Assembly: GCA_008080735.1 (NCBI GenBank)
Contig: SHMW01000010.1
Coordinates: 1 to 64,000, forward strand
Reading direction: 5' to 3'
Length of the DNA stretch: 64,000 bases
Source: Promethearchaeota archaeon
Lineage (GTDB): Archaea > Asgardarchaeota > Lokiarchaeia > Sigyniarchaeales > SOKP01
Below are positions 32,010 through 36,357 of this stretch, one piece after another. Under the pieces are notes generated by a model. It saw only the letters and a program-made list of their open reading frames with translations, was not told where the DNA came from and made no database searches. A program made the translations under genes and the position numbers. How positions within the stretch are numbered: position 1 is the stretch's first letter; the number at the start of each line of letters is the position of its first letter.

Positions 32010-32231
32010 ACTAGATTAATTAAACTAATTATTTTTAAATTCTGTTCTTAATAGATTTAATAGTCTATATTAATATATTGAGATATATTCTATATTCAGA
32101 AAAATAAAAGAAAATAATAGTACGAATCTATTTTTAGGTTCCAGAATTTAGGTTAAAATCCCTTAAGGGATGAGTTTTCTCGCATTTTCGATGATAAAAT
32201 TAAGGTAAAATATTTCCAGTAATTTCTTACT

Positions 32232-32390
32232 TCATAAACTCTCATATAATTCTGATGGTTTCCCACCGCACCCAAAGGTAAAAGACAAAAATTTTCTCTT
32301 TTTTTCACACTGGGGGCAGTAATAATTTCCCGATTCCTCTTTATCATCAAATGTAAATCCACATTCTTCGCAGATCACATAGCTTTTCAT
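32232..32390 (-). CDS. Small zinc ribbon protein (52 aa)
   Basis: MKSYVICEECGFTFDDKEE at the start, then GNYYCPQCEKKRKF: two CxxC knuckles spaced as in rubredoxin-like ribbons, with a further GCGGKPSELYE tail. It is paralogous to the next small gene (32548) and to the UGA-containing zinc ribbon at 35052. It overlaps a longer but meaningless frame on the same strand. Ends at a TGA; I found no SECIS-like element below it, so the TGA is taken as a true stop. Confidence 0.72.
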   Translation of the reverse strand: MKSYVICEECGFTFDDKEESGNYYCPQCEKKRKFLSFTFGCGGKPSELYESL

Positions 32391-32547
32391 ATCCAATTTA
32401 TGCTAAATAGATTATTAAAAACCAGAGGTTATAATCCCTTAATAATTGGAATGACCTTGAGATAATAGATAATAAAAAATTCATATTATACTATTTTCTA
32501 AAAATTGAGAAATAAAAAGTGTTAGGACAAAATCCGTGAGAATTGAG

Positions 32548-32679
32548 TTAGGATTCTGATTCTTTTTCAGACTCCATCTTAAAGAATTCGGTGTATTTCC
32601 CACAATTAGCGCAGTAATACTTTCCTGGTTCATCTTCATCATCGATCGCGGTTCCGCATGATCTACAAATAACAGTCAT
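32548..32679 (-). CDS. Small zinc ribbon protein (43 aa)
   Basis: MTVICRSCGTAIDDEDEPGK, then YYCANCGKYTEFFKM and an acidic tail: two CxxC knuckles 15 residues apart. Same layout as the 32232 gene, which lies 157 bases downstream. Too short for common gene callers. Function unknown; such ribbons often are metal-binding adaptors. Confidence 0.7.
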   Translation of the reverse strand: MTVICRSCGTAIDDEDEPGKYYCANCGKYTEFFKMESEKESES

Positions 32680-33376: not shown

Positions 33377-33501
33377 TTTTTCATGATTATAAAACTATAA
33401 AATATTATTTAAGTAAAAAATGTATGATTTTGATAATAAATTTTTTCTCAACATTAATCATCGAACTATTAAGAGAGGATATGAAATAAAAAATGAAAGG
33501 G

Positions 33502-33571
33502 TTCCCATAACCCGCGCGAGGCAGTCATCAAATGTCTCATTTTTTTACATTTGACTCATCCAAAATGGGAA
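33502..33571 (-). promoter_or_regulatory. SECIS-like element 1, 3' of the U-x-x-U peroxiredoxin gene
   Basis: Read on the minus strand: UUCCCAU, UUUGG, AUGA, G, helix UCAAAUGU, loop AAAAAAAUGAG, ACAUUUGA, UGAC, a GC-rich small hairpin, then AUGGGAA. The outer arms UUCCCAU/AUGGGAA pair over 7 bp. The 8-bp helix is perfect. AUGA begins 15 bases after the stop codon. AUGA opposite UGA with unpaired A's in the apical loop is the core of the eukaryotic SECIS, and Lokiarchaeota are known to have such elements. Confidence 0.85.
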
Positions 33572-33574
33572 ATT

Positions 33575-34066
33575 TTAACAATATTGTTTAATTGCGTTGA
33601 GAATAGTCTCGATATCTGGTCTGTCCGTCTTAGTTTCAGCAATATATTTCCACATAATTTTTCCCGAGTTGTTAATTAAAAATTTAGACGGTATAGCTTG
33701 CTTAGATTTAATATTTGTTTCTGCTATATTTTCATATATCTCAATATCGAATTTTTCTGCAATTTCTGCGTTCTTATCTGAGATTTGTGAAAAATGTAGG
33801 TTGTTCTGCTCTTGATATTCCCGCATATGGTTTTCACTGTCCGATGATATTGAAATAAGTTTAACATTGTATTTTCGGATTTTTTCTAGGTTCTTATTTA
33901 AGAGAATAGAATGCTGTTTTCAATGACCTCACCAAGTCCCTCGGAAGAAATCGATAAGTAATCAACTATAATTATCTATTATCTCTGATAAATCAATTAT
34001 ATTTCCGAGAATGTCTGTAATCTTAAAGTATGGTGCGTTTTTTCCAACCATAAGTCCTTCATTCAT
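33575..34066 (-). CDS. Peroxiredoxin-like selenoprotein with U-x-x-U motif (three in-frame UGA codons)
   Basis: 163 aa if UGA is read as Sec: Sec35 (codon 33962-33964), Sec46 (33929-33931), Sec49 (33920-33922). The motif LLIDFFRGTW-U-GH-U-KQH replaces the W-C-x-x-C of AhpC/TSA-type thioredoxin-fold proteins. Around it are MVGKNAPYFKITDILG at the start and VKLISISSDSENH after the active site, then AIPSKFLINNSGKIMWKY, the usual cis-Pro region. The paralogue at 34353 aligns throughout and has U-x-x-C. A standard reading leaves only a fragment from 33826. A SECIS-like element follows the stop. Likely a peroxide or disulfide reductase. Sec35 has no Cys counterpart in the paralogue and is the least certain. 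Confidence 0.85.
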
Positions 34067-34282
34067 AATTTAGGCACTGTGATTATATTATTGAAGTATA
34101 GGTGTTTAAACAATCATCTTAAATGTATTATAAATAATAAATTATGACCAATATCTAAAAACAAATTTATAATGTTTTTTTATTGTATTTTGAATTGTAC
34201 ATTTTTTTCAGCTTTTCTCCCCAAAAGTATGATCATGCCGAATTTTTAAAAGCTTAAAAAAATAAGAGAAAAGAGTCTAAAT

Positions 34283-34351
34283 ACCAGAACCTGGACAAAA
34301 GGTCGTCAACAAATGCCTCATTTTTTCTGCATCTGTATCATTCTCTCTGGT
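34283..34351 (-). promoter_or_regulatory. SECIS-like element 2, 3' of the U-x-x-C peroxiredoxin gene
   Basis: Minus-strand order: ACCAGA, GAGA, AUGA, U, helix ACAGAUGC, loop AGAAAAAAUGAG, GCAUUUGU, UGAC, hairpin ACCU/AGGU, UCUGGU. ACCAGA pairs with UCUGGU as the basal helix. The inner 8-bp helix includes one G-U pair and differs in sequence from element 1 while keeping pairing. AUGA begins 12 bases after the stop. Same geometry as elements 1 and 3. Confidence 0.85.
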
Positions 34352-34352
34352 T

Positions 34353-34883
34353 TTATAATTTTTTATCAATTTGCTCTGTTAGCAACTTGATTGAGGGCCT
34401 ATCTTCCCTTGTACCAATATATCTCCATGCAATTTTCATTTCCTTTCCAATTAGAAAGGTGGAGGGAATCGCTAATTTAGTCTTAAGATAGATTATATCT
34501 ATGGCGCTTCCAAAGGTATACACATCAAATTTCTTCGCAATCCTCGCTCCTCTGTCAGAAACTAAAGGAAATGTATATCCAAACTTACCGGATAATTCTT
34601 TTAAATGGTTTTTACTATCACTGGCAATTGCTATAAAGAACACCTTTCGTTTTTGAAATTCAGTTATATTTTTATTAATTCTCTCTAAATGTTCTTTGCA
34701 TGGAACTCAAAATGCGCCTCTAAAGAAATCTAATAGGATACCCCCAGAATCCTTCAAAACTTTTGTAAAATCTAAAATATTTTCGTTGATATCTACCAGC
34801 TGGTCAATAGGGATTTGAGATCCCACTTTTAATCCTTTATCAGAATCTTTATGCTCAATATCATTCATACAAAAAGAGATCAT
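34353..34883 (-). CDS. Peroxiredoxin-like selenoprotein with U-x-x-C motif
   Basis: 176 aa from ATG 34883 (or 171 from ATG 34868) with one UGA, codon 34707-34709, at residue 59. The context GILLDFFRGAF-U-VPC-KEH is the thioredoxin-fold active site of AhpC/TSA peroxiredoxins with Sec for the first Cys and Cys62 kept. Downstream: VFFIAIASDSKNH, FPLVSDRGARIAKKFDVY, AIPSTFLIGKEMKIAWRYIG, all family-like. Without recoding only residues from 34643 down would be called. It lies 286 bases upstream of its paralogue on the same strand, each gene with its own 3' element. Expected role: peroxide detoxification or thiol-disulfide exchange. Confidence 0.88.
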
Positions 34884-34971
34884 GTGGAATGATTTATTTA
34901 TTCCTTTTTTAAAAAATAACTTAATTATATTGACAGTGATCAGGAAGATAATTCTTATATATTGATGAGAA

Positions 34972-35025
34972 ACCCTTGCAAGGTGGTCAACATAAATCTA
35001 TAATTTGTATTTATGTCTCATTCCG
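34972..35025 (-). promoter_or_regulatory. SECIS-like element 3, 3' of the UGA-containing zinc ribbon gene
   Basis: Minus-strand order: GGA, AUGA, G, helix ACAUAAAU, loop ACAAAUUAUAG, AUUUAUGU, UGAC, then hairpin ACCUU-GCA-AGGGU. The 8-bp helix is perfect and its sequence is different from both others, so the pairing is conserved by covariation. A basal helix like those of elements 1 and 2 is weak here. AUGA begins about 30 bases after the stop codon of the small gene. Confidence 0.75.
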
Positions 35026-35051
35026 TTAAAATGCACAGTATATAGTTTTTA

Positions 35052-35168
35052 TCATTTGAAGCTAAAGACCATAAAATATTGGATTGATTTTCACAAAGGG
35101 CAATAATGATAACCGTTGGTCTTCTTATCCAAATGTAATATTTTTCCGCATTTTTGACAAATTATCAT
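35052..35168 (-). CDS. Tiny zinc ribbon with UGA at the fourth metal-ligand position (candidate selenoprotein)
   Basis: 38 aa if UGA 35091-35093 is read through: MIICQKCGKILHLDKK, then NGYHYCPL-U-KSIQYFMVFSFK. The related ribbons at 32232 and 32548 read YYCPQC and YYCANC at the same place, so UGA stands exactly where the last zinc-binding Cys is expected. A SECIS-like element of the same build as those of the two peroxiredoxin genes lies 30 bases downstream. Alternatives are a Cys-to-stop mutation in a dying gene or a chance frame; the element argues for recoding. Selenium as a structural zinc ligand would be unusual, so a redox role is possible. Confidence 0.6.
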
Positions 35169-35313
35169 ATATTCTCTAAGAGTGTAAGCTTTTATTCTAA
35201 ATTAAAAATAAGTTCTATATTTTAAAATATCGATAATTTTATTATCCAAAATAAATAAATGTTGATTAATCCAAATTTTTTTCGAAAATATAACTAGAAT
35301 CTTCTTGATCAAA

Positions 35314-36357
35314 ATGGAATTTGTCCGATATAATGAAGAGAAATATACAGTTGAAAAAGGATTCTTAGATTTAGGTCTGTTAGGTATAAAAAACTTACGA
35401 GAAGTCAAAGGACTAAACAAATTAAAAGATATTTACCACTTGGAATTGAGCTCTAATGAAATTTCTTGTATTGATGGTTTAGAGGAACTCACCTCATTAG
35501 AAGTTTTAAACTTAGGGAGCAATTCGATCCTAGAAATATCAGGATTAGAGAGTTTAGAAAATTTGGAAGTATTGCATCTAATTAGTAATCAGATCGCAGA
35601 AATTAAAGGATTAGAAAATCTAAGAAATCTAAAAGAACTCTATTTGCGAGGAAATCAAATTAAGAAAATAATGGGATTAGAAAGTCTAAATAAATTGGAA
35701 AAATTAGACCTTTCTTGGAATCTTATCAAATCGATAGAAGGATTAGAAAATTTACAGAATTTACAAGTCCTCTGGATAGCAGGAAATATAGTCACTCAAA
35801 TTTCTGGATTAGAACATTTGAGTTCTTTGAAAATCTTAAATTTAGCGGGAAATCAAATACAAAAAATAACGAGTTTGGATAATCTGGAAGAAATAGAAGA
35901 GCTTTATCTAAATAACAATCGGATAAAAAAAATTGAAGGTATGGGGACTCTGAAAAACCTTGAATCACTATGGCTAAATGGAAATAAAATAAGCAAGATT
36001 GAAGGATTGGATAATCTTTCAAATCTAAAACTGTTAAATCTTAAAGAAAACAACTTACCAAGAATTACTGGGTTATTAAAACAAAAAAATTTGAAAGAAC
36101 TTTATTTATCTGGAAATGAGATAGGACATATTTCCGGACTTGAAACTTTAACTAATTTAGAAACGCTCGATCTAAACGATAACAATATAAAGAAAATTAA
36201 TGGCTTAGAAGCTCTAATGAATTTAAATTCCTTATGGATTAAAGGGAACCAACTACCTGAAGATGTATTAGAAAAATTAGGGGGCATAGATTCGTCTGGA
36301 TTTGCGAATGATCCTATTAAATTTGTAGAATATTGTCTAATCAATATTTCCCAATAA
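35314..36357 (+). CDS. SDS22-like leucine-rich repeat protein
   Basis: 347 aa from ATG 35314 (TTG 35305 in frame). Thirteen consecutive 22-residue repeats of the form GLExLxNLxxLxLxxNxIxxIx, from about residue 37 to 322, with a short cap at each end. This is the SDS22-type repeat known from protein phosphatase 1 regulators and common in Asgard genomes. It forms a solenoid for protein binding. No signal peptide, so cytoplasmic. The divergent neighbour is the selenoprotein zinc ribbon, the convergent one an MFS gene 31 bp away. Confidence 0.92.
   Translation: MEFVRYNEEKYTVEKGFLDLGLLGIKNLREVKGLNKLKDIYHLELSSNEISCIDGLEELTSLEVLNLGSNSILEISGLESLENLEVLHLISNQIAEIKGLENLRNLKELYLRGNQIKKIMGLESLNKLEKLDLSWNLIKSIEGLENLQNLQVLWIAGNIVTQISGLEHLSSLKILNLAGNQIQKITSLDNLEEIEELYLNNNRIKKIEGMGTLKNLESLWLNGNKISKIEGLDNLSNLKLLNLKENNLPRITGLLKQKNLKELYLSGNEIGHISGLETLTNLETLDLNDNNIKKINGLEALMNLNSLWIKGNQLPEDVLEKLGGIDSSGFANDPIKFVEYCLINISQ

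Follow-up and report, generated by a model that had tools for sequence, protein, structure and literature searches.

In the 64,000-nucleotide (64 kb) stretch of DNA from a lokiarchaeon-like archaeon analysed here, hereafter the window, one gene for a peroxiredoxin-like (Prx-like) protein contains three in-frame TGA codons, at positions 35, 46 and 49. The locus raises the question of which of these codons are read as selenocysteine (Sec, U), and of what the one at codon 35 means. The features on which the answer is built are collected in Table 1.

Table 1. Features of the gene cluster in the window and of one further candidate gene, whose contig is named in its row
Feature	Position	Strand	Evidence
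Target gene: Prx-like selenoprotein, 163 aa, predicted U35/U46/U49, TAA stop	33575..34066	minus	translation, PF00578, homologues
Extra TGA, codon 35; Gly in 55/59 homologues, GGA in nearest relative (L005)	33962..33964	minus	homologue alignment
Predicted U-x-x-U redox pair: codons 46 (33931-33929) and 49 (33922-33920)	33920..33931	minus	TGA/Cys codons in 60 homologues
SECIS of target gene	33500..33573	minus	R1, 67 bits, E 8.7e-15 in window; fold
Paralogue: Prx-like selenoprotein, 176 aa, predicted U59-x-x-C (codon 34709-34707)	34353..34883	minus	translation, homologues
SECIS of paralogue	34279..34354	minus	R1, 54 bits, E 2e-11; fold z -2.7
Mini-gene: 39-residue zinc ribbon, predicted C-terminal Sec (U39 35054-35052, then TAA)	35049..35168	minus	homologues, SECIS
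SECIS of mini-gene	34970..35023	minus	R1, 48 bits, E 6.7e-10
TM candidate selenoprotein L194/L211	G000:C102:10163-10354	plus	SECIS downstream

A Prx-like gene with a predicted U-x-x-U pair

Read on the minus strand from 34066 to 33575 with TGA as U, the target gene comprises 163 codons with a single TAA stop; its product begins MNEGLMVGKNAPYFKITDILGNIIDLSEIIDNYSULLIDFFRGTWUGHUKQH and has Cys163 as its last residue (QYC-stop). The initial annotation had the boundaries of this frame right and did not give the strand. The frame is not a product of chance, because it matches PF00578 (AhpC/TSA fold, E 8e-23), because 163 codons free of TAA and TAG have a probability of ~1e-4 at local composition, and because homologues from the same class can be aligned to it from end to end and have TGA at the matching codon. 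PF00578 scores of 81.1 and 68.8 bits, relative to a gathering cut-off of 26 bits, indicate membership of the AhpC/TSA fold. As a correction to the label “peroxiredoxin-like”, the catalytic region is a thioredoxin/ResA-like W-U-x-x-U and lacks the peroxiredoxin signature PxxxT/SxxC: in FFRGTWUGHU, Arg occupies the Pro site and Sec both the Thr/Ser site and the Cys site. Structure modelling of the two window proteins reached a mean pLDDT of only 40, and the model was set aside.

Homologues were sought in 83 genomes of the class and found in 64, and the codon counts that follow are based on the 60 closer homologues. All 60 have TGA at codon 46, codon 49 varies between TGA (20 sequences), TGT (22) and TGC (18), and neither TAA nor TAG occurs at either position in any of them, so that both codons display the pattern by which a selenoprotein is recognized, namely in-frame UGA aligned with Cys codons or UGA and never with UAA or UAG. 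The exchange of Sec and Cys at codon 49 across homologues indicates that the U-x-x-U motif is genuine; the comparison shows that codons 46 and 49 both belong to Sec/Cys sites, and a selenium amino acid is almost certainly placed at both active-site positions of the target protein. The alignment of orthologues that the initial annotation had proposed as a check thus bears out its reading of both codons as Sec at active-site Cys positions, as do the SECIS elements behind the genes. Its further view, that two Sec residues in one active site are rare anywhere, does not hold for this family. U-x-x-U is present in 20 of the 60 family members, the U/C state at codon 49 changes at least six times on a quick tree, with at least three changes forced by well-supported branches, and the motif, as judged from these sequences, is genuine yet recurrent in several lineages. 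Bacterial Prx-like proteins with U-x-x-U have also been reported already (PMC9312934, PMC13188914, PMC2398784).

SECIS elements behind three tandem genes

Nearly all Prx-like homologues carry, right after the stop codon, an element of the form ATGA-N-8 bp-~11 nt A-rich loop-8 bp-NGAC, with a lower stem and a short ACC...GGT hairpin. In the target gene this layout reads ATGA-G-TCAAATGT-(AAAAAAATGAG)-ACATTTGA-TGAC, again with the lower stem and the short 3′ hairpin. A covariance model (R1) and a covariation test were built from 28 sequences, those of the window being excluded. All eight of the eight pairs of the main stem vary on both sides among these sequences, and the covariation score is 0.47, compared with 0.28 in shuffled alignments and at most 0.16 when the pairing is slid; a covarying SECIS stem in the 3′ UTR, a further hallmark of selenoprotein genes, is thus present. 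Within the 64 kb window R1 finds only three elements at E<0.1. They score 67, 54 and 48 bits, and each follows one of three genes arranged in tandem; the best of the remaining matches has 14 bits. In the whole genome R1 yields eight strong matches. Single-sequence folding is weak for two of the three window elements (z -1.4, -2.7 and -0.6); the case for SECIS rests on covariation and on the R1 model. The elements agree with the eukaryote-like SECIS of type I reported from Asgard genomes (PMC11227280). Prx-like and mini-gene SECIS have in common the short ACC...GGT hairpin on the 3′ side of their core (e.g. 33500-33573, minus strand), and no description of it was found in the parts of the literature covered.

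The three minus-strand genes encode a mini zinc ribbon, a UxxC Prx-like protein and the UxxU target, with a SECIS just behind each stop. The U-x-x-C paralogue that the initial annotation had noted next door is indeed present at 34883..34353; it is 39% identical to the target over 159 residues and has a single TGA, at codon 59, within RGAF-U-VPC. The genome encodes SepSecS (TIGR03531, 491 bits) and SelD, the latter with one in-frame TGA. No tRNA-Sec was detected in the genome, which is 93% complete: Rfam RF01852 matches only tRNA-Gly, -Cys and -Arg. A scan of genome contigs with a Cys-coded pattern returned acidobacterial proteins only.

Apparent small selenoprotein families

It was the third SECIS of the window that led to the mini-gene, which is missing from the initial annotation and is the more novel item compared with the target. 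Its predicted product is MIICQKCGKILHLDKKTNGYHYCPLUKSIQYFMVFSFKU, followed by TAA. Searches of the class and phylum recovered full-length members (37-39 aa) from 27 genomes, all within a single group of family rank. In 25 of these 27 members the last codons are K-TGA-TAA/TAG, followed by an R1 SECIS (36-74 bits); the remaining two (L094 and L095) end in K-TGT-TAA and have no SECIS directly behind. The conserved TGA is therefore the last codon. The codon in CPLU was considered as the defining Sec and rejected: this TGA (codon 26, 35093-35091) is an extra, lineage-specific one that replaces the fourth Cys codon of the zinc ribbon in this genome only, every other member having Cys there. SECIS elements from 22 members at loci devoid of a Prx-like gene covary too, in an alignment that was fitted to the model.

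A Prx-like gene lies downstream of the mini-gene on the same strand in five loci (G000, G029, G030, G033 and G037), and a leucine-rich-repeat gene lies beside it in 23 of the 27; in the window the latter gene (35305..36357, plus strand) is divergent from the mini-gene. Two paralogous small zinc ribbons free of Sec, MTVICRSCG... and MKSYVICEECG...FGCGGKP, are also encoded near the cluster (32664..32163, minus strand), and the second of them has Cys where the mini family has Sec. No Pfam or NCBIfam entry matches the window mini-gene above its cut-off, the best E values among 16 members being only ~1e-5 to 1e-3, and no mention of such a selenoprotein was found in the open-access literature covered. 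A survey of more than 400 Asgard genomes began from known families and reports seven (PMC11227280). From its sequences, the mini zinc ribbon ending in Lys-Sec-stop is apparently an undescribed selenoprotein family.

Outside the window, a SECIS on contig C102 follows a gene for a small protein (65-85 aa) that has a GG(G)-U-x-C-like motif and a single hydrophobic, TM-like stretch, a layout that recalls eukaryotic SelK/SelS. Relatives occur in ~30 genomes, mostly with one TGA; of the 30 loci fetched, 27 have a SECIS by R1, which is weak in one case. The first member falls below every Pfam/NCBIfam cut-off, and the E values of the other members all exceed 0.01; no description was found in the open-access literature covered. 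This GGG-U protein is apparently a second undescribed family.

The extra UGA at codon 35

For the third TGA the initial annotation had been cautious, since it saw no Cys counterpart in the paralogue, and this caution was well placed. Among the 59 homologues with a letter in the column, codon 35 is GGA in 33, GGT in 12, GGC in six and GGG in four, two have Ala and one Ser, and TGA occurs in the target only. Apart from this TGA, the column thus holds only Gly, Ala or Ser, and codon 35 has none of the Cys or UGA counterparts seen at codons 46 and 49. The TGA probably arose by a recent, lineage-specific change of one base from GGA. No in-frame ATG, GTG or TTG lies between codons 35 and 46, so that UGA35 must be read through if the active site is to be made. 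Because a SECIS in the 3′ UTR is not bound to one codon, that of the target gene probably decodes UGA35 as Sec too: at a site that would accept only small residues, the ribosome would read as a tolerated Gly-to-Sec missense what would otherwise be a nonsense mutation. Taken as a whole, the explanation that U46 and U49 form a Sec pair and that UGA35 is a recently changed Gly codon read as a Sec missense seems to us reasonably probable. No further in-domain TGA occurs in the other 59 homologues, which indicates that changes of this kind are not generally common.

An error of sequencing or assembly is unlikely but deserves serious consideration, the contig having been assembled from a metagenome; the Sec pair at 46 and 49 would then be genuine, and the organism itself would have GGA (Gly35). 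Such an error would agree with a TGA that is unique in its column, known from one assembly only (a point against Sec at 35) and one base away from GGA, which is the most frequent codon in the column and also the one present in the nearest relative; contamination of the assembly is 7%. However, the remaining frame and the SECIS of the target are clean, and a second extra TGA lies in the adjoining mini-gene, and in the ORF lists the remaining window genes showed no sign of interruption by TGA. Two errors would both have to hit SECIS genes. The chance of both extra TGAs falling in SECIS genes is p ~4e-4, a post hoc value that assumes no other interrupted gene in the window, as judged from ORF lists only.

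It is rather improbable that UGA35 is a real premature stop in a gene at the onset of decay, dispensable through its neighbouring paralogue. The codon does precede the active site, and the paralogue upstream looks functional and has its own SECIS. Against this, the frame is otherwise intact, no other lesion was seen in it or in the strong SECIS (67 bits), and agreement with the conserved columns (0.78) is in the range of genus-mates (0.75-0.88); moreover, an mRNA bearing a SECIS should decode UGA35 as Sec at least partly.

Selection of Sec35 as a third redox or metal-binding residue is very improbable. Sec at a new position could serve as an extra electron relay, for example by pairing with the C-terminal Cys163, but no relative has Cys or Sec at this site, and by homology U-x-x-U lies at the opposite end of the strand. 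Because site 35, by homology to ResA, begins the strand that leads to the active site, U35 is probably a bystander. Genome-wide reading of UGA as Gly, as occurs in some bacterial phyla, or as another amino acid can be rejected in spite of the Gly codon lost at position 35, since TGA is the ordinary stop of 7 of the 62 non-overlapping window ORFs of at least 80 aa, showing that the code has not changed wholesale, and since codons 46 and 49 align with Cys/Sec and not with Gly.

Relation to known selenoproteins

With a Sec pair at 46 and 49 and a missense Sec at 35, the target protein would be a thioredoxin/ResA-like selenol oxidoreductase in which the Sec machinery reads codons 46 and 49 as Sec and the pair alternates between the diselenol and the diselenide form and thereby reduces peroxides or protein disulfides; possibly it is a peroxidase. 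Eukaryotic SelL likewise has UxxU, with a diselenide. Relative to the SelL-related model NF040769 the Prx-like domain and U-x-x-U are alike, but scores of 52.2 and 33.6 bits against a curated cut-off of 120 denote a related fold and a non-member by that model. The best matches among solved structures are ResA (4nmu, 77 bits) and archaeal Bcp (2cx3, 72 bits); unlike the ResA/TlpA and Bcp/PrxQ proteins, the target has Sec for the active-site Cys, and FFRG-x-W-U-x-x-[UC] instead of WCxxC or PxxxTxxC.

The bacterial Prx-like thiol:disulfide oxidoreductases with U-x-x-C or U-x-x-U share the PF00578 fold (PMC9312934, PMC13188914), and the Prx-like 2 UxxU proteins of GOS share both fold and motif (PMC2398784). 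In contrast to these bacterial selenoproteins, the target has a eukaryote-like SECIS in the 3′ UTR and a third TGA. Asgard prxL shares with the target a Prx-like domain, in-frame TGA and type I eukaryote-like SECIS in the 3′ UTR (AUGA...GA core, A-rich apical loop); the main text of that report mentions neither U-x-x-U nor a third Sec, and the target is placed with prxL by description, not by sequence (Huang et al. 2024, PMC11227280). The Prx-like domain and the eukaryote-like type I SECIS are present in the target, and its Sec system and SECIS type point to an Asgard genome; profilin, tried as an Asgard marker, gave no match, in the controls either. We read the target as a predicted Prx-like Sec oxidoreductase, probably of this known Asgard family, a U-x-x-U prxL with a private third UGA.

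Implications

No known prokaryotes are more closely related to eukaryotes than the Asgard archaea, which already have eukaryote-like SECIS. The chances seem to us evenly balanced that the cluster holds an undescribed archaeal family of 37-39 aa Lys-Sec zinc ribbons, partly linked to Sec-containing Prx-like proteins, and that SECIS-bearing mRNAs of this lineage tolerate new UGAs as Sec missense changes (Gly35 in prxL, Cys26 in the mini-gene), giving rise to a three-Sec protein. The mini-gene suggests that homology-led surveys have missed small Asgard selenoproteins, since they used previously reported selenoprotein families as queries, and that these can be found with a lineage-specific SECIS model. 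A UGA at an ordinary Gly codon of a SECIS gene offers a natural experiment on whether all UGAs upstream of a 3′ UTR SECIS become sense codons and, if the reading is true, would show how SECIS genes can acquire Sec at new positions.
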